In this document: positions 4,023 to 29,940 of the stretch, piece by piece | How the letters are laid out: each line of letters begins with the position of its first letter | Numbering within the stretch: the stretch's first letter is position 1 | Made by a program: the position numbers and the translations under genes | The notes under the pieces: model-generated | Database searches by the model: none | Told to the model about the DNA's origin: nothing | Seen by the model: only the letters and a program-made list of their open reading frames with translations | Origin: Streptomyces misionensis | Lineage (GTDB): Bacteria; Actinomycetota; Actinomycetes; Streptomycetales; Streptomycetaceae | Assembly: GCF_900104815.1 (NCBI RefSeq) | Contig: NZ_FNTD01000004.1 | Coordinates: forward strand, 5,534,501 to 5,598,500 | Direction: 5' to 3' | Length of the DNA: 64,000 bases

Positions 4023-4045
4023 GCGAGAGAGACGTAAAGAAGACC

Positions 4046-4570
4046 ATGTCCAAGCACACGCTCTCCGTCCTGGTGGAGAACAAGCCGGGCATCCTGGCCC
4101 GCATCGCCGCCCTGTTCTCCCGCCGCGGCTTCAACATCGACTCGCTCGCGGTGGGCGTCACCGAACACCCCGACATCTCCCGCATCACCATCGTGGTCGG
4201 TGTCGAGGAACTGCCGCTGGAGCAGGTCACCAAGCAGCTCAACAAGCTCGTCGAGGTGCTGAAGATCGTCGAGCTGGACCCGGCACAGGCCGTCCAGCGC
4301 GAACTCGTCCTGGTGAAGATCCGCGCGGACAACGAGACCCGCTCCCAGATCGTGGAGATCGTCCAGCTGTTCCGCGCCAAGACCGTGGACGTCTCCCCGG
4401 AGGCCGTGACCATCGAGGCCACCGGGTCCAGCGAGAAGCTGTCCGCCATGCTCAAGATGCTGGAGCCGTTCGGCATCAAGGAGCTGGTCCAGTCCGGCAC
4501 CATCGCGATCGGCCGCGGCGCCCGGTCCATCACGGACCGCTCGCTGCGCGCCCTCGACCGGTCCGCGTAA
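4046..4570 (+). CDS. ilvN: acetolactate synthase small (regulatory) subunit
   Basis: 174 residues. An N-terminal ACT domain (starts TLSVLVENKPGILARIAALF, about residues 4-75) is followed by the C-terminal ALS small-subunit domain. In this family the ACT domain binds valine and confers feedback inhibition on the IlvB catalytic subunit. ATG start at 4046; a purine-rich GAGAGAGACG lies upstream. It follows ilvB by 23 bases and precedes ilvC by 129 bases. Confidence 0.97.
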   Translation: MSKHTLSVLVENKPGILARIAALFSRRGFNIDSLAVGVTEHPDISRITIVVGVEELPLEQVTKQLNKLVEVLKIVELDPAQAVQRELVLVKIRADNETRSQIVEIVQLFRAKTVDVSPEAVTIEATGSSEKLSAMLKMLEPFGIKELVQSGTIAIGRGARSITDRSLRALDRSA

Positions 4571-5698
<1,128 letters not shown>

Positions 5699-5709
5699 GC
5701 CTCACGTCA

Positions 5710-5741
5710 GGGGGCCGGGGCATGCTGCTCCGGCCCCCTTT
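5710..5741 (+). terminator. terminator after ilvC
   Basis: GGGGGCCGG (5710-5718) pairs with CCGGCCCCC (5730-5738), followed by TTT. It closes the ilvBNC unit. Confidence 0.75.
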
Positions 5742-5830
5742 CGCCACGACCTCCCGGTATGACTCCACAATGGAGTTCCCCGTCCGGGTGATCCTTCCGC
5801 AGCGGCGCAAACCGACGGCCGCGGCGCCAC

Positions 5831-5836
5831 TAGACT
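5831..5836 (+). promoter_or_regulatory. candidate -10 element of serA
   Basis: TAGACT matches the vegetative Streptomyces -10 consensus TAgaCT. No clear -35 is visible. It would give a leader of about 105 bases before the serA start, in which no leader peptide or riboswitch is evident to me. Confidence 0.4.
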
Positions 5837-5947
5837 GCTGACAACAAACGCGTCAGGCCCACAGCGTCGTGCGTCTTCCACGCGGCTAGCACCCCTCCGC
5901 CAGCGGCCGTCGGGACGGCCGTCCGCATTGGACTTGTGAGGACCCAC

Positions 5948-7537
5948 GTGAGCTCGAAACCCGTCGTACTCATCGCCGAAGAGCTTTCGCCCGCGACCGT
6001 CGACGCCCTCGGCCCGGACTTCGAGATCCGGCACTGCAACGGAGCCGACCGGGCTGAGCTGCTGCCCGCCATCGCCGACGTCGACGCGATCCTGATCCGT
6101 TCCGCGACCAAGGTCGACGCCGAGGCCATCGCCGCGGCCAAGAAGCTGAAGGTCGTCGCCCGCGCCGGCGTCGGCCTGGACAACGTCGACGTCTCCGCCG
6201 CCACCAAGGCCGGCGTCATGGTCGTCAACGCCCCGACCTCGAACATCGTGACCGCCGCCGAGCTGGCCTGCGGTCTGCTCCTGTCCACCGCCCGCAACAT
6301 CCCGCAGGCGAACGCCGCGCTGAAGAACGGCGAGTGGAAGCGCAGCAAGTACACGGGCGTGGAGCTGGCCGAGAAGACCCTCGGTGTCGTCGGCCTCGGC
6401 CGCATCGGCGCCCTGGTCGCGCAGCGCATGTCCGCCTTCGGCATGAAGGTCGTCGCCTACGACCCGTACGTGCAGCCCGCGCGCGCCGCCCAGATGGGCG
6501 TCAAGGTGGTCTCCCTGGACGAGCTGCTGGAGGTCTCCGACTTCATCACCGTCCACCTGCCCAAGACCCCCGAGACCCTGGGCCTCATCGGTGACGAGGC
6601 GCTGCGCAAGGTCAAGCCGAGCGTGCGCATCGTCAACGCCGCGCGCGGCGGCATCGTGGACGAGGCGGCGCTGTACGCGGCGCTGAAGGAGGGCCGCGTC
6701 GCCGGCGCCGGCCTCGACGTCTACGCCAAGGAGCCGTGCACCGACTCCCCGCTGTTCGAGCTGGACCAGGTCGTGTGCACCCCGCACCTGGGCGCCTCCA
6801 CCGACGAGGCCCAGGAGAAGGCGGGCATCGCGGTCGCCAAGTCGGTGCGCCTCGCGCTCGCCGGCGAGCTGGTGCCCGACGCGGTCAACGTGCAGGGCGG
6901 TGTCATCGCCGAGGACGTCAAGCCCGGCCTCCCGCTCGCCGAGCGCCTCGGCCGCATCTTCACCGCGCTGGCCGGCGAGGTGGCGGTCCGGCTGGACGTC
7001 GAGGTCTACGGCGAGATCACCCAGCACGACGTGAAGGTGCTCGAACTCTCCGCCCTCAAGGGCGTGTTCGAGGACGTCGTGGACGAGACGGTGTCGTACG
7101 TCAACGCCCCGCTGTTCGCCCAGGAGCGTGGCGTCGAGGTCCGCCTCACCACCAGCTCCGAGGCCACCGAGCACCGCAACGTGGTGACCGTGCGCGGCAC
7201 GCTCGGCACCGGCGAGGAGGTGTCGGTCTCCGGCACGCTGGCCGGCCCCAAGCACGTCCAGAAGGTCGTGGCGGTCGGCGAGTACGACGTCGACCTCGCC
7301 CTCGCCGACCACATGGTCGTCCTGCGCTACGAGGACCGTCCCGGTGTCGTCGGCACCGTCGGCCGCATCCTCGGCGAGGCGGGCCTGAACATCGCCGGCA
7401 TGCAGGTCGCGCGCGCCACGGTGGGCGGCGAGGCGCTGGCCGTCCTCACCGTGGACGACACGGTGACGGCCGCCGTGCTGGCCGAGGTCGCCGAGGAGAT
7501 CGGGGCGACGTCCGCCCGCTCGGTGAACCTGGTCTGA
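5948..7537 (+). CDS. serA: D-3-phosphoglycerate dehydrogenase (long, ACT-domain type)
   Basis: Oxidises 3-phosphoglycerate to 3-phosphohydroxypyruvate with NAD, first step of serine synthesis. 529 residues, the long type with catalytic/NAD domains (GLGRIGALVAQRM Rossmann motif; NAARGGIVDEAAL; HLGASTDEAQ with the catalytic His), an intervening ASB domain (about 320-450) and a C-terminal ACT domain (VLRYEDRPGVVGTVGRIL) that senses serine in this family. The GTG at 5948 is chosen because GAGGA (5938-5942) lies five bases upstream and it gives MSSKPVVLIAEEL, the usual Streptomyces N-terminus; the GTG at 5936 would put the ribosome site inside the gene. Confidence 0.96.
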   Translation: MSSKPVVLIAEELSPATVDALGPDFEIRHCNGADRAELLPAIADVDAILIRSATKVDAEAIAAAKKLKVVARAGVGLDNVDVSAATKAGVMVVNAPTSNIVTAAELACGLLLSTARNIPQANAALKNGEWKRSKYTGVELAEKTLGVVGLGRIGALVAQRMSAFGMKVVAYDPYVQPARAAQMGVKVVSLDELLEVSDFITVHLPKTPETLGLIGDEALRKVKPSVRIVNAARGGIVDEAALYAALKEGRVAGAGLDVYAKEPCTDSPLFELDQVVCTPHLGASTDEAQEKAGIAVAKSVRLALAGELVPDAVNVQGGVIAEDVKPGLPLAERLGRIFTALAGEVAVRLDVEVYGEITQHDVKVLELSALKGVFEDVVDETVSYVNAPLFAQERGVEVRLTTSSEATEHRNVVTVRGTLGTGEEVSVSGTLAGPKHVQKVVAVGEYDVDLALADHMVVLRYEDRPGVVGTVGRILGEAGLNIAGMQVARATVGGEALAVLTVDDTVTAAVLAEVAEEIGATSARSVNLV

Positions 7538-7544
7538 GCACCCC

Positions 7545-7590
7545 CGAACGCCGGACGGGCCGAGGTCTTCCTCGGCCCGTCCGGCGTTCG
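7545..7590. terminator. bidirectional terminator between serA and the convergent exporter gene
   Basis: A perfect 21-bp inverted repeat (arms 7545-7565 and 7570-7590) with a TCTT loop. No long T-tract on either side, typical of actinobacterial GC-rich terminators. It ends 9 bases before the exporter stop codon. Confidence 0.75.
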
Positions 7591-7598
7591 CGCGTCCG

Positions 7599-9062
7599 CT
7601 ACCCCTCGGTCTTCCGCAGGGTCACGGCCGCCCCCACCGCGGCCAGCACCAGCAGCACCGCCCCCGCCAGCGCGGCGTCCCGCATCCCGGTGGTGAACGC
7701 CTGCCGGGCGGCGGCGAGCAGGGACCGCCCCGCCTCGCCGGGCAGCCGGGTGACGGTGGCGAGCGCGCCGCCGAGGGTCTCGCGCGCCCCCGCCGGCGCC
7801 GTGCCCGGCATCCGGTGCCGGTAGACCGCCGTACCGATCGATCCGAGGACCGCCATCCCGAGCGCCCCGCCGAACTCCGCGCCGGTCTCCAGGAGCGAGG
7901 AGGCGGTACCGGCCCGTTCCACCGGGGCGCCGCTCATGGCCAGATCGGTCAGCTGGGACATGATCGCGACCATCCCGCAGGCCAGCACGCCGGCCCCGGC
8001 CAGCACCAGCCACAGCGAGTCGGTGCCGAGCAGGGCGAGCAGCGCGAAGCCGCCCGCCATCGCGGCGAAGCCGCCCGCGACGACGTACCCCCGGTCGACG
8101 CCCCGCCGCACGAGCCGTGCGCTGAGGGGACCGGCGACGCCGATGAACACCGAGGGCAGCAGGCTCCACAGGGCGGCCGAGAGCGGGCTCTTGCCCAGCA
8201 CCGACTGGAGGTACTGCGTGGTGAAGACCGCCGAGCCCATCATGGCGAGCGACGCGACGAGGTTCAGCACCAGCGCCGGGGCGAACCCCCGGCCCTTCAG
8301 CAGGGCGGGCGGGACCAGCGGGGTGGCGTGGGTGCGCTGGCGGTGTGTGAACAGGGCGGCGAAGAGCAGGCCGACGGCGACCGGGACGACGTACCGCGGG
8401 TGCCAGCCCTCGGAGGGGATCTCCTTGAGGCCGTAGATCACGGGGAGCACGGCGGCCAGGGACAGCGGCACGCTCGGCCAGTCGAAGGGGCCGGGGGAGG
8501 GGTTCTTCGACTCGGGCAGCAGCACCGGGCCGAGCACCAGCAGCAGCCCCATCGCGGGCAGGTTGACCAGGAACACCGCGCCCCACCAGAAGTGCTCGAC
8601 CAGGATGCCGCTCATCACCGAGCCGAGGGCGACGCCGCCGGTCATCACGCCGGACCAGAGGCCGATCGCCTTCGCACGTTCGGCCGGGTCGGTGAACATC
8701 GCGCGCAGCAGGGCCATGGTCGACGGCATCAGGGTCGCCCCGCCGATGCCGAGGAGCGCGCGGGCGGCGATCAGGGTCGTGGCGCTGTCGGCGTAGGCGG
8801 CGAGCAGCGAGGCACCGCCGAACGCGGCGGCGCCCATGAGCAGCAGCCTGCGGCGGCCGATCCGGTCCCCGAGCGAGCCCATGGTCATCAGCAGCCCGGC
8901 GAGCACGAAGCCGTAGATGTCGAAGATCCACAGCTGCTGGGTGCCGGTGGGGTGCAGATCGGCGCTGATCGCCGGGGCGGCGAAGTACAGCACCGAGACG
9001 TCCATCGAGACCAGGAGCAGCGGCAGCATCAGCACGTAGAGGGCGGTCCATTCACGCTTCAT
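7599..9062 (-). CDS. MFS drug exporter, DHA2 (14-TM) family
   Basis: 487 residues with about 14 hydrophobic segments; motif A after TM2 reads GSLGDRIGRRRLLL. N-terminus MKREWTALYVLMLPLLLVSMDVSVLYFAAPAIS is typical of EmrB/QacA-like proton antiporters. Divergent from a TetR gene, the usual self-regulated efflux pair. Start at 9062 is preferred over an ATG at 9071: a promoter (TAGACA, 17-base spacer, TACATT at 9070-9075 on the minus strand) would start transcription at about 9063, making the message leaderless, and the ATG at 9071 lies inside the -10. Substrate cannot be predicted. Confidence 0.88.
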   Translation of the reverse strand: MKREWTALYVLMLPLLLVSMDVSVLYFAAPAISADLHPTGTQQLWIFDIYGFVLAGLLMTMGSLGDRIGRRRLLLMGAAAFGGASLLAAYADSATTLIAARALLGIGGATLMPSTMALLRAMFTDPAERAKAIGLWSGVMTGGVALGSVMSGILVEHFWWGAVFLVNLPAMGLLLVLGPVLLPESKNPSPGPFDWPSVPLSLAAVLPVIYGLKEIPSEGWHPRYVVPVAVGLLFAALFTHRQRTHATPLVPPALLKGRGFAPALVLNLVASLAMMGSAVFTTQYLQSVLGKSPLSAALWSLLPSVFIGVAGPLSARLVRRGVDRGYVVAGGFAAMAGGFALLALLGTDSLWLVLAGAGVLACGMVAIMSQLTDLAMSGAPVERAGTASSLLETGAEFGGALGMAVLGSIGTAVYRHRMPGTAPAGARETLGGALATVTRLPGEAGRSLLAAARQAFTTGMRDAALAGAVLLVLAAVGAAVTLRKTEG

Positions 9063-9069
9063 GACAGGC

Positions 9070-9114
9070 AATGTACGAGCGTCTTAAACACTTGTCTAGA
9101 ACACTTGTGTAAGT
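9070..9114. promoter_or_regulatory. promoter and putative TetR operator of the exporter gene
   Basis: Minus-strand promoter: -35 TAGACA (complement of 9093-9098), 17-base spacer, -10 TACATT (complement of 9070-9075). Overlapping it is a direct repeat AACACTTGT at 9087-9095 and 9100-9108, and the second copy continues into the dyad ACTTGTGTAAGT (9103-9114). Binding here would block the exporter promoter. The regulator identity is inferred from the adjacent divergent TetR gene. Confidence 0.55.
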
Positions 9115-9160
9115 CATGCGTCTGGGACGGTTGTATGGAAGGCGGGGTAGGCTGCCCGGC

Positions 9161-9760
9161 ATGGGACATCGCGAGGATCTGCTCGAAGGCGCGAAGCGCT
9201 GCCTGCTGGAGAAGGGGTTCGCGCGGACCACGGCGCGCGACATCGTGAAGGCCTCTGGCACGAACCTGGCCTCCATCGGCTACCACTACGGCTCGAAGGA
9301 CGCGTTGCTGGCGCAGGCGTACGTCGCGCTGGTGGAGGACGTGCCCCTGGAGGGCGGCGAGGGCATCAGCGCCGCCCCCGGTTCGCTGGAGCGGTTCCGC
9401 GAGGTGTGGTCGAACGTCGTCGACAGCCTCCGCGAGCCGGGCTCGATCTGGCGGCTCAGCGTGGAGATCCTCGCGATGGGCGATCAACTGCCCGAGGTGC
9501 GCGACCAGTTGTCCCGCGCACAGCGCGAGGCCGGCCGGGGCATGGTCTCCCTGCTGATGGGGGTGCCGGAGGAGGAGGTCTCGGACGGGACCGCCGACAC
9601 CCTCGGCCGCTTCTACGTGACCCTGATGACGGGCCTGATCTCCCAGTGGACCTTCGACCCGAAGACCGCCCCGAACGCGGAGGCGCTGACGGAGGGGTTG
9701 CGGCAGGTGATGGCGGCGGCGGACGCCGCGGCCTCGGGCCCCGCTTCGGCCGGGGGGTGA
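9161..9760 (+). CDS. TetR/AcrR-family regulator of the divergent exporter
   Basis: 199 residues. N-terminal TetR helix-turn-helix: GHREDLLEGAKRCLLEKGF...TTARDIVKASGTNLASIGYHYGSKDALL (about residues 2-50). The remainder is the ligand-binding and dimer domain. The ATG at 9161 is chosen because TAGGCT (9148-9153), a good -10, ends seven bases upstream, indicating a leaderless message; there is no Shine-Dalgarno. Likely represses the DHA2 exporter and itself through the repeats at 9087-9114. Confidence 0.88.
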   Translation: MGHREDLLEGAKRCLLEKGFARTTARDIVKASGTNLASIGYHYGSKDALLAQAYVALVEDVPLEGGEGISAAPGSLERFREVWSNVVDSLREPGSIWRLSVEILAMGDQLPEVRDQLSRAQREAGRGMVSLLMGVPEEEVSDGTADTLGRFYVTLMTGLISQWTFDPKTAPNAEALTEGLRQVMAAADAAASGPASAGG

Positions 9761-10072
9761 CCGCGGCCGGCTGAAGTCCGGCCGCCGACCCTCCTGTTCG
9801 GGCCGTACGAACCGCTGGTACGCGAGCGCCCGTTCGTCGCTTCGGCGGCGCAGCCGGCGCGTCGCGGCGGCGGGGTCCGTGGTCCGGTCCGCGAGGAGGG
9901 CGGCGGTCTCCGCGCTGGGCCGAGCTCCGCCGAGACGCAGGGCCGGCGAGGCGTTGTGGGCGAGTGCCGCCTCGGCCGTGTGTTCCGTCATCCGTGGCTC
10001 AACGTCGCTCCGGGGCGCAGGTGCGGCGACAGGCATGTGCTCATCCGTCGCCGCACCCTGCGGTCCGCGGTG
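9761..10072 (-). other. gap with a coding-like minus-strand frame (possible gene remnant)
   Basis: Between the TetR gene and the DUF4097 gene. On the minus strand a frame from an ATG at 9991 begins MTEHTAEAALAHNASPALRL and keeps high G/C at third positions for about 75 codons, but it has no stop before running antisense through the whole TetR gene. No ribosome site is convincing. It may be the 5' end of a gene whose 3' part was lost, or only compositional bias. I see no other feature here. Confidence 0.25.
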
Positions 10073-10744
10073 TCACAGGCTGCGGGCGGTGATGTCGCCG
10101 TAGGCGGTGGTGGCGTGGATGTGCAGGCCCGCGCCGGAACCTTCGGCGTTCTTCAGGGCGTTGTCGACACGGCCGTAGGAGGTGCCGGCGTCCAGGGTCG
10201 CGGAGACCCCGCGGGCGGCGCCGACCGAGATGGCTCCGTGCTCGGTGCGCAGGGTGACGGTGCCGCCCATGGCCTCGGTGACGTGGAGGTCTCCCTTCTG
10301 GGTGCTGATCTCCGCGTCGGCGCCCAGCCGGCCGACCGAGATGTCGCCGGCCTGGAGGGCGAGCCGGGCGCTCGCGGTTTCGTCCAACTTGACCGTGCCC
10401 TGCGCGCCCTCGAACACGACGTCCCCGAGGCGCCCGACGCCGCGGAACTCGCCGCTCGCCGTCTTCGCCTCGACGCGTGAGCCGACGGGCAGCTGGACGG
10501 TCACCTCGATCGAGCCGGAGGGGCCGAGGATCCGGTTGCCCGCCGCGGGGACCTCGATCCGCAGCACCCCGTCGCCGTAGGCCACCTCGGTCCGCTCCGC
10601 CGCCTTGACGTCACGGCCCTTCGCGGCGTCGGACGGCCGGACCTCGACGGTGGTGTCCGTCCGGTCGGCGGCGATGAGCTGGACGCGCCCGGCGGGGATG
10701 TCGAGGACGACGGAGACGGGGGCGGGGGTGTCGAACTTCTGCAT
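10073..10744 (-). CDS. DUF4097-family protein (right-handed beta-helix-like)
   Basis: 223 residues, mostly short beta-strand repeats with alternating Gly and Val (for example SASGEFRG, TQKGDLHV, TSYGRVDN, TTAYGDITAR), as in the DUF4097/DUF2807 putative adhesin family. No signal peptide or membrane segment, so probably cytoplasmic; biochemical role unknown. The start at 10744 (MQKFDTPAPVSVVLDIP) is set by AAGGAG six bases upstream on the minus strand. A palindrome GTTTCC-N6-GGAAAC (10766-10783) lies in its 5' leader. Divergent from a regulator gene with which it shares operator-like boxes. Confidence 0.8.
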   Translation of the reverse strand: MQKFDTPAPVSVVLDIPAGRVQLIAADRTDTTVEVRPSDAAKGRDVKAAERTEVAYGDGVLRIEVPAAGNRILGPSGSIEVTVQLPVGSRVEAKTASGEFRGVGRLGDVVFEGAQGTVKLDETASARLALQAGDISVGRLGADAEISTQKGDLHVTEAMGGTVTLRTEHGAISVGAARGVSATLDAGTSYGRVDNALKNAEGSGAGLHIHATTAYGDITARSL

Positions 10745-10765
10745 CGTGAACTCCTTGGCTGCGTT

Positions 10766-10915
10766 GTTTCCGATGATGGAAACGCTACGTTGCATTCACT
10801 GAACGGGCAACAACTTAATCGCTTGTAATTCCCCAACTTGCAGGCCAGAGATGCAATTTCATTGCAATGGCGCTCCGGGCTAATGCAACGCCGATGCCGT
10901 TGCTCGTTGCAATGG
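10766..10915. promoter_or_regulatory. divergent control region with TGCAA boxes and a GTTTCC/GGAAAC palindrome
   Basis: AT-richer than its surroundings. TGCAA-type boxes: CGTTGCATTC (10788-10797), ATGCAAT (10851-10857) and ATTGCAA (10861-10867) as an inverted pair, TAATGCAACG (10881-10890) and CGTTGCAATG (10905-10914) as another inverted pair. The last overlaps a -35 TTGCAA (10907-10912) spaced 18 bases from TAAGCT (10931-10936), the likely promoter of the regulator. On the minus strand TTGCCC-N17-TAGCGT could serve DUF4097. The arrangement suggests one regulator controlling both genes and itself. Confidence 0.55.
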
Positions 10916-10973
10916 ATTGAGGCTGAACGCTAAGCTGCGGGCCGGGCACCACGGATTGAAGGAGAAGAGCGCG

Positions 10974-11735
10974 ATGCCGGGAGGCAGACTCACCCAGCAG
11001 GAACGTCAGCGGATCGCGCTGGGACTGGCCGACGGCCTCGCCTACGCGGAGATCGCGCGACGCCTCGACCGTCCGACGTCGACCGTCACCCGCGAGGTCA
11101 TGCGCAACGGCGGCCCCACCGCCTACCGCGCGGACGCGGCCCACCGCGCCACGGAGCGCCGCGCCCACCGCCGCGCACGCAGCGCGCCCCGGGATGCGGA
11201 GACGGCCGCGCGACCCGACGGGCGCGACGCGGAGGCCGTGCGCGCGTACGAGGAGAAACTCGCCGACGTCTTCATCCAGTCGGGGCTGCCCAAGATGATG
11301 GCGCGGGTGCTGGTCTGCCTCTACACCACCGACTCGGGCAGCCTCACCGCCTCCGAACTCGTCCAGCGCCTCCAGGTCAGCCCGGCGTCCGTGTCCAAGG
11401 CGATCGCCTTCCTGGACAGCCAGGGCCTGGTGCGCCGCGAGCGCGACGAACGCCGCCGGGAGCGGTATCTCGTGGACGACGACATCTGGTACCAGGCGAT
11501 GATGTCCACCGCCCGCTCCAACGCCCTGGTCGTCGAGGTCGCACGACAGGGCGTGGGCGTCCTCGGCCCCGGCACCCGGGCCGCCACCCGCCTCGAAAAC
11601 GTCGCCCGCTTCGTGGACTTCGTCTCCGAGAGCATCACCCGGGCGGCGGAACAGGCACGGGAGGTTCTGTACACGCGGCCCGAAGGTCCGCAGGGGCCCG
11701 GCGACGGCGCGGTGCGCGGCGACCGGGACGCGTAG
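10974..11735 (+). CDS. transcriptional regulator: IS30-type HTH fused to MarR/GbsR-type winged helix
   Basis: 253 residues. An N-terminal helix-turn-helix (about 5-45: GRLTQQERQRIALGLADGLA, AEIARRLDRPTSTVTREVMR) resembles the DNA-binding segment of IS30-family transposases, but no DDE catalytic domain follows. After an Arg/Ala linker comes a MarR/GbsR-like winged helix (about 95-165: MMARVLVCLYTTDSGSLTASE, LQVSPASVSKAIAFLDSQGL, RRERDERRRERYLV). ATG at 10974, nine bases after AAGGAG (10959-10964). Divergent from the DUF4097 gene; the shared TGCAA boxes suggest it is that gene's regulator. Ligand unknown. Confidence 0.82.
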   Translation: MPGGRLTQQERQRIALGLADGLAYAEIARRLDRPTSTVTREVMRNGGPTAYRADAAHRATERRAHRRARSAPRDAETAARPDGRDAEAVRAYEEKLADVFIQSGLPKMMARVLVCLYTTDSGSLTASELVQRLQVSPASVSKAIAFLDSQGLVRRERDERRRERYLVDDDIWYQAMMSTARSNALVVEVARQGVGVLGPGTRAATRLENVARFVDFVSESITRAAEQAREVLYTRPEGPQGPGDGAVRGDRDA

Positions 11736-19608: not shown

Positions 19609-20313
19609 GTGCGACTGACCCCCACGGAACGTGACCGGCTGCTGCTGTTCGGGGCCGCCGAACTGGCCCGGGCCCGCCGCGCCCGCGGGCTGCGGCTGAA
19701 CGTGCCGGAGGCGACCGCGCTGATCGCGGACACGGTCTGCGAGGCCGCCCGCGACGGCAGGCGGCTCGCGGAGGCCATCGAGGCGGCCCGCGCCGTGCTC
19801 GGCCCCGAGGACGTGCTGCCGGGCGTCGCCGACGTGGTCACCGAGGTGATGGTCGAGGCCGTCTTCGACGACGGCTCCCGGCTCGCGGTGGTCTGCGACC
19901 CCATCGGCGGCGGCCTGGGCGACGACGCCCCCGGCGCGCTGCTGCCCGGGCCCGCGCACGCCGACCCGGAGCCGGTCGTCCGGCTCACCGTCACCAACAC
20001 CGCGACCGTGCCGGTCTCGGTCACCTCCCACTTCCACTTCTTCGAGGCCAACCCGCGCCTCGACTTCGACCGCGCCGCCGCCTACGGCATGCGGCTCGCC
20101 GTGCCCGCCGGATCGTCCGTGCGCTTCGGCCCGGGCGAGAGCGAGGAGGTCGGCCTGGTGCCGATCGGCGGAGAGCGGATCGCGATCGGCTTCGCCGGGC
20201 TGGTGGACGGGCCGCTGGACGCGCCGGGCGCCCGGCAGGAGGCGCTGCGCCGGGCCGCCGCCTGCGGATATCTGGGCGCCCGCAGCGCGGAAGAGGAAGG
20301 ACAGGACCGATGA
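19609..20313 (+). CDS. ureA: urease gamma-beta fusion subunit
   Basis: 234 residues. Residues 1-100 form the UreA (gamma) domain (LTPTERDRLLLFGAAELARA, VPEATALIADTVCEAARDGR); residues about 130-225 form the UreB (beta) domain (VTNTATVPVSVTSHFHFFEA, LDFDRAAAYGMRLAVPAGSS, PGESEEVGLVPIGG). Gamma-beta fusions are common in actinobacteria. GTG at 19609, nine bases after AAGGAGG (19593-19599). Overlaps ureC by four bases (ATGA), so translation is coupled. No ureD/E/F/G accessory genes are nearby. I call it ureA for the fused gene (ureAB). Confidence 0.92.
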   Translation: MRLTPTERDRLLLFGAAELARARRARGLRLNVPEATALIADTVCEAARDGRRLAEAIEAARAVLGPEDVLPGVADVVTEVMVEAVFDDGSRLAVVCDPIGGGLGDDAPGALLPGPAHADPEPVVRLTVTNTATVPVSVTSHFHFFEANPRLDFDRAAAYGMRLAVPAGSSVRFGPGESEEVGLVPIGGERIAIGFAGLVDGPLDAPGARQEALRRAAACGYLGARSAEEEGQDR

Positions 20314-22034
20314 GCCGCTCCAAGGGACGCGAGGTCAGCCGGGCGATCCACGTCGACCCGCGGGCGTACGCCGCCACCCACGGCCCGCGCGCCGGGGACC
20401 GCATCCGGCTCGGCGACTCCGGCCTGACCGTCCGGGTGGAGTCCGACGCCCAGCACTACGGCGACGAGTTCCTGGCCGGCTTCGGCAAGACGGCCCGCGA
20501 CGGACTGCATCTGAAGGCCGCCGCCGTGCGCGAGACCTGCGACGTCGTGATCAGCAACGTCGTCGTGATCGACGCGGTGCAGGGCATCCGCAAGGTGTCC
20601 ATCGGCATCCGGGAAGGCCGGATCAGCGCGATCGGACGGGCGGGCAACCCGGACACGCTCGACGGCGTGGACGTCGTCGTCGGCACCGGCACGTCCATCG
20701 TCTCCGGCGAGGGGCTGATCGCCACCGCGGGCGCGGTCGACACCCATGTCCACCTGCTGTCACCGCGCATCATGGAGGCCTCGCTCGCCTCCGGCGTGAC
20801 CACGATCATCGGGCAGGAGTTCGGCCCGGTGTGGGGCGTCGGCGTCAACTCCCCCTGGGCGCTGCGCCACGCCTTCAACGCCTTCGACGCCTGGCCGGTC
20901 AACATCGGGTTCCTGGGCCGGGGTTCGTCCTCCCACGAGGCACCGCTCGTCGAGGCGCTGGCCGAGGGCGGCGCCTGCGGGTTCAAGGTGCACGAGGACA
21001 TGGGCGCCCACACCCGCGCGCTGGACACCGCGCTGCGGGTCGCCGAGGAGCACGACGTGCAGGTGGCCCTGCACAGCGACGGGCTGAACGAATGCCTCTC
21101 GGTCGAGGACACCCTGAAGGTGCTGGAGGGCCGCACCATCCACGCCTTCCACATCGAGGGCTGCGGCGGCGGGCACGTCCCCAACGTGCTCAAGATGGCC
21201 GGGGTGCCGAACGTCATCGGCTCCTCCACCAACCCCACCCTGCCCTTCGGCCGGGACGCGGTCGCCGAGCACTACGGCATGATCGTCTCCGTCCACGACC
21301 TCAAGCCCGACCTGCCCGGCGACGCGGCCATGGCCCGCGACCGCATCCGGGCGAGCACCATGGGCGCCGAGGACGTGCTGCACGACCTGGGCGCGATCGG
21401 CATCACCTCCTCCGACGCGCAGGGCATGGGCCGCGCGGGCGAGACGGTACGGCGCACCTTCGCCATGGCCGGCAAGATGAAGGCCGAACTGGGCCCGCTG
21501 GAGGGCGACGGCGAGGGCGACGACAACGCCCGCGTGCTGCGCTACATGGCCAAGCTGACCGTCAACCCGGCCATCGCGCACGGCCTGTCGCACGAGGTCG
21601 GCTCCATCGAGGTGGGCAAGCTCGCCGACATCGTGCTGTGGCGGCCCGAGTACTTCGGCGCCAAGCCGCAGCTCGTCCTCAAGTCCGGCTTCCCCGCCTA
21701 CGGTGTCGTCGGCGACCCCAACGCGGCCACCGACACCTGCGAACCCCTCGTCCTCGGCCCGCAGTTCGGGGCCTACGGGGCCACCGCGGCCGACCTCTCC
21801 GTGGCGTTCGTCGCCCGCGCGGCCGTGGACCAGGGCAACGACACGATGCCCACCCGGCGCCGCCGGGTCGCGGTCCGCGGCACGCGCGGCATCGGCCCCG
21901 CCGACCTGCGGCTCAACGCCCGTACCGGAGCGGTCGACGTCGACCAGCGCACCGGCCTGGTCACCCTCGACGGCGACCCGCTGCGCTCGGCGCCCGCCGA
22001 CTCCGTCTCCCTCAACCGCCTGTACTTCCTCTGA
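20310..22034 (+). CDS. ureC: divergent urease alpha subunit (urease-like nickel amidohydrolase)
   Basis: 574 residues, usual UreC length. Nickel ligands conserved: His146 and His148 (DTHVH), bridging Lys226 (GFKVHEDMG), His255 (ALHSDGLNE), His281 (FHIEGCGGGH), Asp369 (SSDAQ). Two active-site features differ from canonical enzymes such as Klebsiella UreC. The flap segment is IVSVHDLKPD where canonical enzymes have MVCHHLDPD, so the catalytic-flap Cys is Val328 while His329 remains. The glycine motif GGGTGPAxGT after ASGVTT reads GQEFGPVWGV. Such changes suggest a different substrate or slow urea turnover. Downstream, 21 bases away, is agmatine deiminase. Confidence 0.88.
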   Translation: MSRSKGREVSRAIHVDPRAYAATHGPRAGDRIRLGDSGLTVRVESDAQHYGDEFLAGFGKTARDGLHLKAAAVRETCDVVISNVVVIDAVQGIRKVSIGIREGRISAIGRAGNPDTLDGVDVVVGTGTSIVSGEGLIATAGAVDTHVHLLSPRIMEASLASGVTTIIGQEFGPVWGVGVNSPWALRHAFNAFDAWPVNIGFLGRGSSSHEAPLVEALAEGGACGFKVHEDMGAHTRALDTALRVAEEHDVQVALHSDGLNECLSVEDTLKVLEGRTIHAFHIEGCGGGHVPNVLKMAGVPNVIGSSTNPTLPFGRDAVAEHYGMIVSVHDLKPDLPGDAAMARDRIRASTMGAEDVLHDLGAIGITSSDAQGMGRAGETVRRTFAMAGKMKAELGPLEGDGEGDDNARVLRYMAKLTVNPAIAHGLSHEVGSIEVGKLADIVLWRPEYFGAKPQLVLKSGFPAYGVVGDPNAATDTCEPLVLGPQFGAYGATAADLSVAFVARAAVDQGNDTMPTRRRRVAVRGTRGIGPADLRLNARTGAVDVDQRTGLVTLDGDPLRSAPADSVSLNRLYFL

Positions 22035-22055
22035 ACCCGGAACGGACCCGCACCG

Positions 22056-23105
22056 ATGAGCACCCCCGCCGCCGACGGCTTCCGCATGCCCGCCGAGTGG
22101 ACCCCGCACGAGCGCACCTGGATGGCGTGGCCGGGCCCCAACCCCACCTTCGACGACGGTGAGGAACTGGCCGCCGCCCGGCGCGCCTGGGCCTCGGTCG
22201 CCCGGGCGATCCGCCGCTTCGAGCCGGTCACCGTGGTCTGCGGCCCCGGCCGGTCGGCCGAGGCCCGGGAGCTGCTCGGCCCGGACGTGGACACCGTGGA
22301 GCGCGCGCTGGACGACGCCTGGATGCGCGACATCGGCCCCACGTTCCTCACCTCCGACCGGGGCGAACTGGCCGCCGTGGACTGGACGTTCAACGGCTGG
22401 GGCGCCCAGGAGTGGGCCCGCTGGGAGCACGACTCGAAGATCGGCGCCGAGGTCGCCGGCCTCGCGGGGGCGCGGACGTACGCCTCGCGGCTGGTCAACG
22501 AGGGCGGCGCGATCCATGTCGACGGCGAGGGCACCGTGCTGCTCACCGAGACCGTGCAGCTCGGCCCCGAGCGCAATCCGCACTGGACGAGGGAGCAGGT
22601 CGAGGCCGAGATCCACGCCCACCTCGGCACCCGCAAGGCCATCTGGCTGCCGCGCGGCCTGACCGCCGACTACCCCCCGCACGGCTACGGCACCCTGGGC
22701 CACGTCGACATCGTCGCCGCCTTCGCCCGCCCCGGCGTCGTCGTCGCCCACCACCAGCCGGACCCGGCGCACCCGGACCACGAGGTCACCAAGGAGGTCA
22801 TCGGCCTGCTCAGGTCCTCGACCGACGCGCACGGCCGCCCGCTGGAGGTCGTGGAGGTGCCCGCGCCGACCGTGCTGGAGGCCGACGGCCACTGGGCCGA
22901 CTACTCCTACATCAACCACTACCTCTGCAACGACGGCGTCGTGCTGTGCGCCTTCGACGACCCCCGCGACGAGACCGCCGCCGCGATCTTCCGCCGCCTC
23001 TTCCCCGAGCGGACCGTCACCCTGGTCGACGCCCGCCGCGTCTTCGCCGCAGGCGGCGGCATCCACTGCATCACCCAGCAGCAGCCGAAGCCCGCCCGGC
23101 CTTGA
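22056..23105 (+). CDS. aguA: agmatine deiminase
   Basis: Hydrolyses agmatine to N-carbamoylputrescine and ammonia (peptidyl-arginine-deiminase-like, guanidine-modifying fold). 349 residues. Catalytic residues recognisable: Asp in DDAWMRDIGPTF, Glu/Gly in NEGGAIHVDGEG, His in GTLGHVDIVAAF, nucleophile Cys338 in GGGIHCITQQQPK. Follows ureC by 21 bases, so probably one operon. The usual partner aguB (N-carbamoylputrescine amidohydrolase) is absent; see findings for the idea that the urease-like enzyme replaces it. Confidence 0.93.
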   Translation: MSTPAADGFRMPAEWTPHERTWMAWPGPNPTFDDGEELAAARRAWASVARAIRRFEPVTVVCGPGRSAEARELLGPDVDTVERALDDAWMRDIGPTFLTSDRGELAAVDWTFNGWGAQEWARWEHDSKIGAEVAGLAGARTYASRLVNEGGAIHVDGEGTVLLTETVQLGPERNPHWTREQVEAEIHAHLGTRKAIWLPRGLTADYPPHGYGTLGHVDIVAAFARPGVVVAHHQPDPAHPDHEVTKEVIGLLRSSTDAHGRPLEVVEVPAPTVLEADGHWADYSYINHYLCNDGVVLCAFDDPRDETAAAIFRRLFPERTVTLVDARRVFAAGGGIHCITQQQPKPARP

Positions 23106-23344
23106 CCTCGAGTCCGCTTGGTGCGCTGTTCATCGTGGGCGGCGCCGCCGGCGGCGGTCACCGCGGGGCCGTCCGCGCCCCGGGTCGGGTAGAACATACG
23201 GGTGAACTTCCTGGTCCCTGCGTGCCGCCGCCGTCGCCCCGAGTTGCCCGAGCGGCCGGCCGTCGCCGAACCGGACGGGCCGGGCACCCCGGGGCCGGCC
23301 GGCGAAAGCCCCTTCCTGCCCGACGCCGTACGGATGGTGCCCGC

Positions 23345-23953
23345 ATGAGCGAGAGTTCCGCCCCGCGCCGGCGCACCCCCGCCCCGCCCCGCGAGGACCT
23401 GCTCGCCGCGGCCATGCGCATGATCGCCGAGCACGGTCTGGAGAAGCTCACCATGGCGGGGCTCGGGCGCGAGGTCGGGATGAGCAGCGGCCATCTGCTC
23501 TACTACTTCCGGTCCAAGGACGAACTCCTCCTCCAGACACTGGAGTGGAGCGAGGGACGGCTCGGCGCCGAGCGGGCCCGGCTGCTCGCCCGGGCGGCGC
23601 CGGCGCGGGAGCGGCTGGAGGACTACGTCGACCTGTACGTGCCCGACGGCCACCGCGACCCGCACTGGACCCTCTGGCTGGAGGTCTGGAACCGGTCCCA
23701 GAACGCCGACGACGACGCCCGCGCCCGCCAGTGCGCGATCGAGGGGGCCTGGCACCGGGACCTCGTCGCGCTGATCGCCGAGGGGATCTCCCGCGGGGAG
23801 TTCCGGCCGGTCGACGCGGACCGCTTCGCCACCAGGACGCGCGCGCTGCTCGACGGGTTCTCCATCCACGTCGCCATCGGGCTGCGCGGCACCGACCGGG
23901 AGCAAGTGCTCGCCCACGTGAGGGAGTTCGTGGCGGACGGGCTTCTCGCGTAG
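23345..23953 (+). CDS. TetR-family regulator (BetI-like)
   Basis: 202 residues. HTH at about 15-60: LLAAAMRMIAEHGLEKLTMA, LGREVGMSSGHLLYYFRSKDELL. The C-terminal segment with WLEVWNRSQ resembles TetR proteins related to BetI/PuuR that respond to amines or their aldehydes. 239 bases after aguA and 38 bases before an MHS permease, same strand. It may regulate the permease and the ureAB-ureC-aguA genes. ATG at 23345 has no clear ribosome site, so the start is moderately certain. Confidence 0.82.
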   Translation: MSESSAPRRRTPAPPREDLLAAAMRMIAEHGLEKLTMAGLGREVGMSSGHLLYYFRSKDELLLQTLEWSEGRLGAERARLLARAAPARERLEDYVDLYVPDGHRDPHWTLWLEVWNRSQNADDDARARQCAIEGAWHRDLVALIAEGISRGEFRPVDADRFATRTRALLDGFSIHVAIGLRGTDREQVLAHVREFVADGLLA

Positions 23954-23991
23954 AGGAATCGTCCGCTCGGCCGCCGGGCAGGTAACGGCCC

Positions 23992-25320
23992 ATGGGACGA
24001 GAACACTGGAAGAAGATCTGGGTCGGTTCGGCGGGGAACATGGTCGAGTGGTTCGACTGGTTCGTGTACGCCAGCTTCGCCACCTACTTCGCCGGGGCGT
24101 TCTTCCCCAGCGGCAACCCCACCGCCCAGCTGATGAACACCGCCGGGATCTTCGCCGTCGGTTTCTTCATGCGGCCGGTCGGCGGCTGGCTGCTCGGGCG
24201 GGTCGGGGACCGCAGGGGCCGCAAGGCGGCGCTGACGCTCACCGTCACACTGATGTCGGCCTCCGCGGTGCTGATCGCCGTCGCGCCCACGTACGCCGTC
24301 GCCGGCTACGGCGGCGCCCTCGTACTGCTCGTCGCCCGGCTGCTCCAGGGCCTCTCGGTGGGCGGCGAGTACGCGGCCAGCGCCACCTACCTCACCGAGG
24401 CCACCGACCCGGCAAAACGCGGCTTCGCCTCCAGCTTCCAGTACGTGTCCATGACCGTCGGCCAGATCGTCGGCCTCGGCCTCCAGATCATCCTCCAGCG
24501 CACCATGTCCGACTCCGCCCTGCACAGCTACGGCTGGCGCATCCCCTTCGTCGTCGGCGCCCTCGGCGCGGCCGTCGTCTTCTACCTGCGCCGCACCATG
24601 CTGGAGAGCGAGATCTACGAGGAGGACGCCGCCCACGCCGGGCGGACCGAGGCCGCCGAGGAGCGCGGCACCCTGCGCGCCCTGTGGCGGCACCGGCGCG
24701 AGGCGTTCCTCGTCATGGCGCTCACCATGGGCGGCACGGTCGCGTACTACACGTACACCACCTATCTGACCAAGTACCTCTCCAACTCGGCGGGCCTGTC
24801 CAAGGACACCGCCACCCTCGTCTCCTTCACCGCGCTGATCGTCTTCGCCGCTCTCCAGCCGCTCGCCGGGGCCCTGTCCGACCGGATCGGCCGGCGGCCG
24901 CTGCTGATCACCTTCGCGATCGGCTCCACCGTCCTCACCGTGCCGATCATGACCCTGCTCAGGCACGCCGACGGCTACGGGCCCGCCCTCGGCCTCTCCC
25001 TGCTCGCCCTGGTCGTCGTCACCGGCTACACCTCGATCAACGCCTGTGTGAAGGCCGAGCTGTTCCCGACCGGTGTCCGCGCCTTGGGCGTCGCCCTGCC
25101 GTACGCCCTCGCCAACGCCCTCTTCGGCGGCACCGCCGAATACGTCGCCCTGTGGTTCAAGAACGCCGGGATCGAGTCCGGATTCTTCTGGTACGTGGCG
25201 GGCTGTGCCGCCGTGTCGCTGGTCGTGTACGTCGCCATGCGGGAGACGAAGGACCTGGACCTGGCCGGAACGCGAGGGACCAAGGGTGCGGGGGAGTCCA
25301 CTGTGACGACCGCATCCTGA
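23992..25320 (+). CDS. MFS permease of the metabolite:H+ symporter (MHS) family
   Basis: 442 residues, 12 predicted membrane segments. MHS hallmarks: N-terminal GNMVEWFDWFVYASFATYFA, motif GRVGDRRGRKAALTLTV, GLSVGGEYAASATYLTEATD, second DRIGRRPLL. Relatives import dicarboxylates, ketoglutarate, betaine/proline or citrate; the substrate here is unknown. Context with aguA and a BetI-like regulator makes an amine-derived or amino-acid-derived substrate possible. The C-terminal tail after residue 415 is polar and short. Confidence 0.87.
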   Translation: MGREHWKKIWVGSAGNMVEWFDWFVYASFATYFAGAFFPSGNPTAQLMNTAGIFAVGFFMRPVGGWLLGRVGDRRGRKAALTLTVTLMSASAVLIAVAPTYAVAGYGGALVLLVARLLQGLSVGGEYAASATYLTEATDPAKRGFASSFQYVSMTVGQIVGLGLQIILQRTMSDSALHSYGWRIPFVVGALGAAVVFYLRRTMLESEIYEEDAAHAGRTEAAEERGTLRALWRHRREAFLVMALTMGGTVAYYTYTTYLTKYLSNSAGLSKDTATLVSFTALIVFAALQPLAGALSDRIGRRPLLITFAIGSTVLTVPIMTLLRHADGYGPALGLSLLALVVVTGYTSINACVKAELFPTGVRALGVALPYALANALFGGTAEYVALWFKNAGIESGFFWYVAGCAAVSLVVYVAMRETKDLDLAGTRGTKGAGESTVTTAS

Positions 25321-27992: not shown

Positions 27993-29858
27993 TCACTGCA
28001 ACTGCCACTTCTGGTTGGCCGCGCCCGTGCAGGACCAGATCTGGGCGCGGGCGCCGTTCGCCGAGGAGTTGTCGGTGACGTCCAGGCACTTGTTCGCGGC
28101 GACGTTCACCACGTCGTGGGTGGCGGCGTTGTACGACCACTGCTGGGCGCCGGTGCCGTTGCAGTCGTAGAGCTGCACCTTGGCCCCGTCGGCCGTCGAG
28201 CCCGAGGTCACGTCCAGGCACTTGCCGAGCGCCTGGACGGAACCGTCGGCCATGACGGTCCACTGCTGGGCGGCGGTGCCGTTGCAGTCGTAGAGCTGGA
28301 CGGCCGTGCCGTTGGCGCTGGAGGCGCCCGCCACGTCCAGGCACTTGCCGGCCAGGCCGACGAAGGAGCCGGTGCGGGCGCCGCCGCCGCTCTGGGTGCC
28401 GGACCAGGTGAAGGTGGCGGAGGTCTTGCCGGGCAGCGAGTAGGTGGCGTGCTGGGAGCCCCAGCCGATGGTCACCGTCTGCGCGGCGGAGGAGCCGTTG
28501 TAGGCGATCAGCGCCTTGCTGCCGTCGGGGTTGCGCCAGGCCACGTTCGGCACCGTGGTGGACGCAGTGGAGGCGATCCGCTGCGCGCCGGGGCGGACGA
28601 ACTTGGTCAGCTGGCCCATGTCGTAGTACTCGACGGTGTAGTCGACGGTCCCGCTCTGCCCGTCCCCGTTGTGCACGGTGACCAGCCCGGTGCAGGTGCC
28701 GCATCCGCCGTTGTGCGGGCCCGTGTTCTGGTCCACCGCCAGGGACCACTTGGTCACCGACTTCCCCCAGTTGCGAGTGTAGTCGATGATGTCGGTCATG
28801 TCCTGGCGCTGCTGGTCGGCGATCCAGGTGCCGCCGGAGTGCTCGGTGTCGAAGGCGTCCACCGAGGGGTACTTGTCGTGGACGGTGGTCTGCTCGCCGA
28901 CGTCACCGCCGTAGCCGTGCCAGGCGATGCCGCCGAAGTTGGGGTGGCTGCGGATCGCCGTGTCGTCCACCAGCGGGGCGGCCCAGGAGTCGTAGCCGTC
29001 CCAGTTCCAGTCGTGGACCAGGACCTTGGTGCTCAGGCCGGCCGACTGGAGCCGGGGCAGCAGGTCGGTCTTGAGGAAGTACGACAGCCCGTCGGCGTTC
29101 CAGCTCATCGAGGGATAGCCGGAGCAGCAGGTCGGCTCGTTCTGCGGGGTCACGTAACCGACCTTGACCCCCTGGTCCTGGTACGCCTGGAGGTACTTGA
29201 CGAAGTAGGCGGCGTAGGCGGCGTAGTCCTCCGCCTTCAGCCAGCCGCCGTTGAGCGAGCCGCTGTCCTTCATCCAGGCCGGGGCGGTCCAGGGCGAGGC
29301 CATCACCGTCAGGGACGGATCGAGCTGGAGCGCCTGCTTGGTGAGCGGCACGACGTCGGCGAGGTCGTGCGCGATCGAGAACGTGGCGAGGTCCGGGTCC
29401 GACTGCCCGGCGGGCACGTCGTCGTACGTGTAGCCGTAGCGCGCGAGGTCCGAGGCGCCCATCGGGTTGCGCAGGAACGACAGCCCGATGCCGTCCGTCG
29501 GCGAGAACAGCTTGCGCATGGTCGCGTCCCGGGTCGTCGGGGACAGCGCGCCGCTGCTGTTCAGCAGCCAGGCCGCGGTGTCCGTGAAGGAGGCGCCGCC
29601 ACCGGTGAAGGTCTGGTAGCGGGTGTTCTCGTCCACGGTGATGTTCGTGCCGCCGCCACTCGTCCCGGACTGGAACGAGAACGGCGTCTGTGCCTGGAGG
29701 CCGCGGACCACATGGCGTCCGGCGGAGTCGTCGGTCGTGGTGAGCCAGGCCGTGACCTGCTCACCGGCCGCGTGTGCGGGGGGAACGGCCGCGGTGAAAC
29801 CGGCGGCGGAGAGCAGCCCGGCCAGCAGCAGCCGGACCGCGCGGGGGGATCTCCTCAT
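27993..29858 (-). CDS. secreted glycoside hydrolase family 30 with C-terminal ricin-type lectin (CBM13)
   Basis: 621 residues. Signal peptide MRRSPRAVRLLLAGLLSAAG...PPAHA, cleavage near residue 31. Catalytic GH30 barrel (about 45-380) with acid/base Glu241 (TPQNEPTC) and nucleophile Glu339 (DTEHSGG); beta-sandwich to about 490; then a ricin-B lectin of three QxW repeats (about 500-621: KCLDVAGASS...QQWT, KCLDVTSGS...QQWS, KCLDVTDNSS...QKWQ). Close relatives are endo-beta-1,6-galactanases and beta-1,6-glucanases. Start at 29858 follows AGGAAGG; an upstream ATG at 29912 would precede the signal. Divergent from a GH3 gene, a likely co-regulated saccharide-degrading pair. Confidence 0.9.
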   Translation of the reverse strand: MRRSPRAVRLLLAGLLSAAGFTAAVPPAHAAGEQVTAWLTTTDDSAGRHVVRGLQAQTPFSFQSGTSGGGTNITVDENTRYQTFTGGGASFTDTAAWLLNSSGALSPTTRDATMRKLFSPTDGIGLSFLRNPMGASDLARYGYTYDDVPAGQSDPDLATFSIAHDLADVVPLTKQALQLDPSLTVMASPWTAPAWMKDSGSLNGGWLKAEDYAAYAAYFVKYLQAYQDQGVKVGYVTPQNEPTCCSGYPSMSWNADGLSYFLKTDLLPRLQSAGLSTKVLVHDWNWDGYDSWAAPLVDDTAIRSHPNFGGIAWHGYGGDVGEQTTVHDKYPSVDAFDTEHSGGTWIADQQRQDMTDIIDYTRNWGKSVTKWSLAVDQNTGPHNGGCGTCTGLVTVHNGDGQSGTVDYTVEYYDMGQLTKFVRPGAQRIASTASTTVPNVAWRNPDGSKALIAYNGSSAAQTVTIGWGSQHATYSLPGKTSATFTWSGTQSGGGARTGSFVGLAGKCLDVAGASSANGTAVQLYDCNGTAAQQWTVMADGSVQALGKCLDVTSGSTADGAKVQLYDCNGTGAQQWSYNAATHDVVNVAANKCLDVTDNSSANGARAQIWSCTGAANQKWQLQ

Positions 29859-29940
29859 GGTGCGTCGCCCTTCCTCTCGGGTCGACAGTGGGGTCGCCAA
29901 CGGGTGGGCCATCTTGACGAGTTGGGGAGGCGTCAGTTAA

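Follow-up and report, generated by a model that had tools for sequence, protein, structure and literature searches.

A urease homologue encoded beside an agmatine deiminase homologue in Streptomyces is a candidate ureido hydrolase in place of AguB

The window we analysed, 64,000 nucleotides from Streptomyces misionensis (contig NZ_FNTD01000004.1, positions 5,534,501 to 5,598,500), contains five genes on the plus strand that encode a fused urease gamma/beta homologue (ureAB), a urease alpha homologue (ureC), an agmatine deiminase homologue (aguA), a BetI-like regulator (tetR) and an MHS-type permease. Judging from sequence comparisons, we consider it fairly probable that UreABC is a chaperone-independent ureido hydrolase that has replaced the N-carbamoylputrescine amidase AguB and acts on the product of the neighbouring deiminase, and that it is not a urease for urea. 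The observations behind this reading are the gene content of the locus, the conserved pairing of ureABC with aguA, the exchange of partners next to aguA in related loci, the lack of an AguB above cut-off, a UreC clade that occurs without maturation genes, and the retained metal-ligand positions.

We infer the substrate, reaction, metal, regulation and transport of the following pathway. AguA would deiminate an alkylguanidine, most likely agmatine, releasing ammonia and leaving a mono-substituted urea, N-carbamoylputrescine, which is probably the substrate of UreABC. UreABC would bind the terminal urea group at its metal centre in an altered pocket and yield the amine, ammonia and bicarbonate, a step done elsewhere by AguB; the chemistry is modelled on that of ureases, and the metal site would be assembled without UreD, UreF and UreG. 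The TetR protein is the probable regulator of the ureABC-aguA unit, and the MHS permease would probably import the substrate of the pathway.

Among 121 Streptomyces genomes, ureC of the window's type occurs at 81 listed places in 74 genomes, and aguA lies within 3.5 kb at all 81 (the count is of listed rows, and weaker aguA relatives of 35-42% identity are not included). By the rows used, nine Streptomyces have aguA and no listed ureC, and 38 others have neither; the nine include G333 and G336, where ureC is truncated at the contig end, and G107, whose contig stops at aguA. We also sampled 296 Actinobacteriota genomes evenly (the phylum sample), fetched their ureC loci and classified 68, leaving out ureC fragments that were too short (L120, L121 and L122) and weak amidohydrolase matches. 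Valine at the flap together with glycine in the TDGLNE motif, a rule that members with other flap residues would escape, assigned 20 loci to the window's type and left 48 other ureC loci; aguA is nearby in ten of the former versus none of the latter. For the named loci, which are the best 80 of at least 564 confirmed matches, the figure is 71 of 80, including loci from Thermoactinospora, Thermocatellispora, Streptosporangium, Streptacidiphilus and Kitasatospora. The expectation, drawn earlier from the window alone, that a ureC with a valine flap would be paired with aguA across genomes stands insofar as this UreC clade specifically shows a conserved pairing; it falls insofar as the pairing is not strict and valine does not define the clade.

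The Streptomyces unit mostly occupies one site, beside an ilvE-like and a citramalate-synthase-like gene (labels assigned by eye), and genomes that are related do not count as independent; both points speak for a linkage that is inherited synteny devoid of functional meaning. However, the pair also stands at second places in Streptomyces and in other families, where the gene order differs: G007 has aguA-ureAB-ureC, G208 has ureAB-ureC-aguA, and in G224 ureABC and aguA diverge and a TetR match adjoins. On the AguA tree, the UreABC-neighbour label must have changed at least five times given the starred branches. We regard inherited synteny as an extremely improbable explanation.

The neighbours of aguA support the view that, in the slot of UreABC, relatives carry other families that can cleave N-carbamoyl groups. 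In the 35 genomes of the phylum sample that have an aguA match, aguA adjoins UreABC in 10, a nitrilase in 7, an amidase-signature protein in 3 and a carbamoyltransferase-like protein (by eye) in 6; the remaining 9 have none, were not fetched or were undetermined. The nitrilases adjoining aguA in G230 and G166 pass the cut-off for N-carbamoylputrescine amidase (457.8 and 425.9 versus 410.25 bits). A single clade of the AguA tree (100/99) holds the window's aguA, the UreABC-linked sequences, the two nitrilase-linked sequences from G230 and G166, and three amidase-linked ones. The exchange can be followed in otherwise similar settings: downstream of NCS1 permease-aguA, G268 has an amidase where G297 has ureABC, and an operon with a peptide-type ABC transporter has nitrilase-aguA in G348 and aguA-tetR-ureABC in G375. 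The permeases vary by locus as well (MHS, NCS1, peptide-type ABC and polyamine-type ABC). UreABC itself is no member of the AguB family, as it matches PF00449, PF01979 and the urease gamma/beta families and not the nitrilase model TIGR03381.

The absence of AguB from genomes with the pair, which the sequence-only reading had supposed, was borne out: no match exceeds the cut-off of TIGR03381 (410.25 bits) in the S. misionensis genome or in any of the 121 Streptomyces. S. misionensis does have two nitrilases that score 256 and 252 bits against this model and adjoin a dihydropyrimidinase-like gene (by eye). A nitrilase in this position could be the true AguB, with UreABC unrelated to AguA. These nitrilases are 39% identical to an AguB that passes the cut-off, and the available text of one study lists SCO5527 and, after it, SCO6414 of Streptomyces coelicolor as homologues of the arginine decarboxylase pathway (PMC3293853); the order of that list can be read as SCO5527 being AguA and SCO6414 AguB, and hence the nitrilase. 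However, the nitrilase stays under the cut-off in 121 of 121 Streptomyces, it is present irrespective of aguA (for example in G023 and G303, which have no aguA match), and the 81 of 81 pairing and the exchange of partners would be left unexplained. This makes it very unlikely that the nitrilase takes the place we assign to UreABC.

Further evidence comes from the maturation genes. We searched 22, 22 and 23 chosen genomes with profiles for UreG, UreF and UreD, respectively. In all 14 genomes whose sole intact ureC belongs to the window's clade (G384, G400, G171, G208, G007, G224, G245, G037, G117, G022, G127, G106, G084 and G160; listed completeness 81 to 100%, with G384 and G171 at 100%), the three proteins are under cut-off or absent, and in all seven with an intact ordinary ureC (G000, G297, G365, G023, G008, G218 and G074) the three are above it. 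Genome G277, which has none of the three, was left out of the 14 as its ureC piece is unclassified, and in the clade member G269, where the search was for UreD only, UreD is absent. Traces below cut-off are UreG-like sequences in G384 (30.9 bits) and G171 (24.3 bits; cut-off 204.2) and a UreD-like one in G171 (23.3 bits; cut-off 27). Locus L118 (G171:C1:440500-453500) holds a broken copy of the ordinary ureC, while the ureABC linked to aguA has been retained in this genome, which has no UreF or UreG above cut-off. In the phylum sample, none of the 20 window-type loci has UreG or UreF within 6 kb, compared with 44 of the 48 other ureC loci; of the four others without them, L107, L111 and L112 are on contigs that stop close to ureC, and L118 is the broken copy. 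A profile search found UreF in 105 of the 121 Streptomyces. The 16 without UreF comprise seven with no ureC match, three with only an ordinary ureC match, and six of the window's type, namely G171, G384, G400 and the drafts G311, G340 and G391; the drafts may hold an ordinary ureC too, as one is listed for G340 and an unlisted second match exists in G311 and G391.

These observations bear on the possibility that UreABC is a second ordinary urease for urea, matured by the UreD, UreF and UreG of the first urease, and that its proximity to aguA reflects an association in nitrogen scavenging. In the available portions of the literature, the ure(AB)C clusters of Streptomyces are counted among functional ureases in a survey (PMC5489568), SCO5525-5526 are called urea-utilising (PMC3293853), and the clusters with ure(AB)C only, in S. 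coelicolor and S. avermitilis, are noted as a separate group (PMC2492869). The number SCO5526 is used for another operon in one publication. UreC shares the urease fold, which is evident from the sequence match alone, keeps the ligand positions and passes the urease subfamily model PRK13207 (754.5 bits, cut-off 354). However, clade members reside in genomes with no UreD, UreF or UreG above cut-off, the 20 loci of the phylum sample have no maturation gene within 6 kb, the pocket is altered, and the agmatine deiminase reaction yields no urea. We consider an ordinary urease improbable.

The remodelled pocket inferred earlier from the window alone is real by alignment: UreC has Val328 at the flap, Gly372, Gly258 in the TDxLNE motif, and an altered and shortened version of the GGGTGP loop. 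The two His pairs, the Lys and the Asp, which we take to be the metal ligands, are invariant across eight aligned clade members. On a tree of 56 UreC sequences, a 100/100 branch parts 32 rows (the window's type, relatives and three plasmid-borne copies) from 24 ordinary ureases. The use of the flap valine as a diagnostic of aguA-paired ureC was not borne out, and we rejected it as a marker of the clade. Of the 80 named relatives, 69 carry Val at the flap, 7 Ala, 3 Cys and 1 Ser, and the valine flap is therefore a symptom of the clade and not its definition. Valine occurs once outside the clade, in L052 (8795-10483, G065:C4). This urease looks ordinary, adjoins UreF and UreG and is placed by the tree among the ordinary ureases; its valine arose independently.

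Several observations weigh against a UreABC that replaces AguB. Both enzymes fall short of their equivalog models: AguA scores 316.9 bits against the TIGR03380 cut-off of 381.8, and UreC 651.1 against the TIGR01792 cut-off of 680. The window's own genome (8.47 Mb) carries, by profile searches, a second, ordinary ureC together with UreD, UreF and UreG. G322, G337 and G361 have only an ordinary ureC listed and yet no UreF, so the loss of UreF alone is no proof of chaperone independence. In six of the 121 Streptomyces (G300, G309, G330, G342, G359 and G403), aguA stands apart from ureABC and no AguB exceeds the cut-off. Ten of the 20 clade loci in the phylum sample lack aguA within 6 kb (several of these contigs are short, and G084, G106 and G218 have aguA elsewhere in the genome), as do nine of the 80 named loci, and the clade as a whole is therefore not tied to aguA. 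Finally, at the position corresponding to Asp220 of the Medicago agmatine deiminase, 18 of the 19 AguA sequences of the window's clade have Gly (Gly212 in the window) and the other has Ser; this Asp is described as binding the amine of agmatine in the available text of PMC6447857. Separately, we asked in 16 genomes, with G268 as control, if an amidase of family NF005127 stands in for ureABC in the aguA-only Streptomyces; this candidate was rejected, as the amidase exceeds the cut-off in the control G268 but, among the seven aguA-only genomes (G107 included), in G309 only.

As AguA sequences of this clade lack an equivalent of the amine-binding Asp220, another alkylguanidine is a possible substrate, and AguA and UreABC could act in sequence on it and on its ureido product. 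The replacement extends throughout the AguA subfamily, with a loop inserted beside it; permease types differ between loci; and other members of the UreC clade are found in different surroundings, for example a peptide-synthetase cluster. However, the inserted loop holds another Asp, and since relatives in the same AguA clade, those of G230 and G166, are linked to AguB, agmatine is the likeliest guanidine. The closest solved structures are agmatine deiminases, the AguB-linked relatives of AguA are also under the TIGR03380 cut-off (239 bits), and the catalytic Cys, His and Asp are kept, in alignment with Cys366, His224 and Asp226 of the Medicago enzyme. A guanidine other than agmatine is unlikely in our view, though it is the alternative we take most seriously.

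The proposed pathway resembles known systems in part. In the AguA-AguB route of Pseudomonas aeruginosa (part of PMC9397018), as here, a deiminase homologue is encoded next to an enzyme that may cleave the ureido product, with a TetR-type gene near; here, however, the second enzyme is a urease homologue and not a nitrilase, and the AguA subfamily is under the equivalog cut-off. The Enterococcus faecalis type pairs an agmatine deiminase with a carbamoyltransferase that uses N-carbamoylputrescine (described in the same part of PMC9397018). The parallel is an aguA next to a different N-carbamoylputrescine enzyme, and the carbamoyltransferase-like neighbours counted above are of this kind; that reaction is a phosphorolysis, whereas UreABC would catalyse a hydrolysis. 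With the nickel urease UreABC and its UreDEFG, the window's protein shares the subunits, the fold and the metal-ligand positions, but it differs in the changed pocket, the aguA neighbour and the absence of maturation genes from genomes that have only the clade's type. The iron urease UreAB2 of Helicobacter mustelae is reported, in the available text, to be independent of accessory proteins and to hydrolyse urea (PMC2846917). The absence of maturation genes from genomes that have only the clade's type fits such independence; unlike UreAB2, the window's UreABC is predicted to hydrolyse a ureido compound. A search of titles and abstracts in the open-licence literature found no proposal, for this clade, of another substrate, of chaperone independence, or of a pairing between a urease and agmatine deiminase or N-carbamoylputrescine.

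The coordinates of the five genes and of the residues discussed above are collected in Table 1. All five genes lie where the sequence-only reading had placed them, and family scans agree with its assignments. The start of ureC overlaps ureAB by 4 bases, and 21 bases separate ureC from aguA. Viewed by eye, the unit is flanked by a branched-chain aminotransferase (ilvE)-like gene on one side and a citramalate-synthase-like gene on the other. The nearest model for TetR is BetI, yet it scores 72.7 bits against a cut-off of 201.3, and the permease is nearest to MHS-type symporters but under the curated cut-offs (PRK10406, 454.9 of 550 bits; a second model, 391.3 of 443.5).

Table 1. Genes and residues of the ureABC-aguA locus, with positions in the window
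Feature	Positions	Strand	Basis
ureAB, fused urease gamma/beta homologue, 234 residues	19609..20313	+	GTG start; PRK13192 325.6 bits (cut-off 243), PF00547, PF00699
ureC, urease alpha homologue, 574 residues	20310..22034	+	PF00449, PF01979; placed by tree in the maturation-gene-free clade
ureC residues 169-176, QEFGPVWG replacing the ordinary GGGTGP loop	20814..20837	+	alignment; loop four residues shorter; includes the Val174 position
ureC flap Val328 (Cys in ordinary ureases)	21291..21293	+	alignment
ureC Gly372 (mostly Ala in ordinary ureases)	21423..21425	+	alignment
aguA, agmatine deiminase homologue, 349 residues	22056..23105	+	PF04371 365.3 bits
aguA Cys338, aligned with catalytic Cys366 of the Medicago enzyme	23067..23069	+	alignment
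tetR, BetI-like regulator, 202 residues	23345..23953	+	PF00440, PF13977 (BetI-type C-terminal domain)
MHS-type MFS permease, 442 residues	23992..25320	+	PF00083, PF07690

Elsewhere in the window, the minus strand encodes at 27993-29912 a secreted-looking protein that looks, by eye, like a glycosidase of family 30 carrying a ricin-type lectin repeat at its C-terminus. Additional aguA-like genes are present at the second UreABC-aguA loci of Streptomyces, L156-L162 (in G375, G307, G366, G387, G299, G367 and G332). At L156, L157 and L159 some of the deiminases have, by eye, a twin-arginine-like signal, and L156 and L159 include a peptide-type ABC transporter; loci of this type perhaps serve guanidine breakdown outside the cell.

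Members of the UreC clade also occur in other settings. Plasmid-borne relatives of UreABC, with UreC 66-67% identical, are found in Embleya, Streptomyces and Kitasatospora (L037, 9303-11689; L038, 9273-11653; L040, 9279-11644), where they are clustered with APH-type phosphotransferases and with proteins that have adenylation and condensation domains, to which L040 adds a 2OG-Fe(II) oxygenase; L039 has the same genes, unannotated. The setting looks like one of natural product biosynthesis. In L043, L045 and L047 (G245, G037 and G117), ureAB-ureC is followed by a polyamine-type ABC transporter, whose ATPase in L045 is above the potA cut-off, and there is no aguA. A relative with a Cys flap and no aguA in Streptomyces atratus (L236, about 3400-11050) has as neighbours, by eye, a molybdenum hydroxylase, XdhC and a peptide-type ABC ATPase. 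In Nonomuraea (L170 and L218), relatives of UreABC, with a Cys flap in L170, are followed by a permease (by eye) and lack aguA, and L170 also has an amidohydrolase-like gene (by eye) after the ureABC relative. A tentative extension of our reading, about which we are slightly more doubtful than confident, is that the whole clade of urease homologues in the Actinobacteriota may consist of self-assembling ureido hydrolases freed from urea and from nickel chaperones; the AguA-linked branches would have replaced AguB, and the others would serve other ureido compounds, one of them the product of a peptide-synthetase pathway.

The ureABC genes of this type are annotated as ureases in many Streptomyces, and if UreABC has indeed replaced AguB, their substrate would be a different one and a gap in the agmatine pathway of these soil bacteria would be filled. 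Urease would also gain a relative in nature whose metal site is loaded with no help from the chaperone machinery, and the reason why urease needs chaperones could be probed with two homologues of about 46% identity that reside in one genome.

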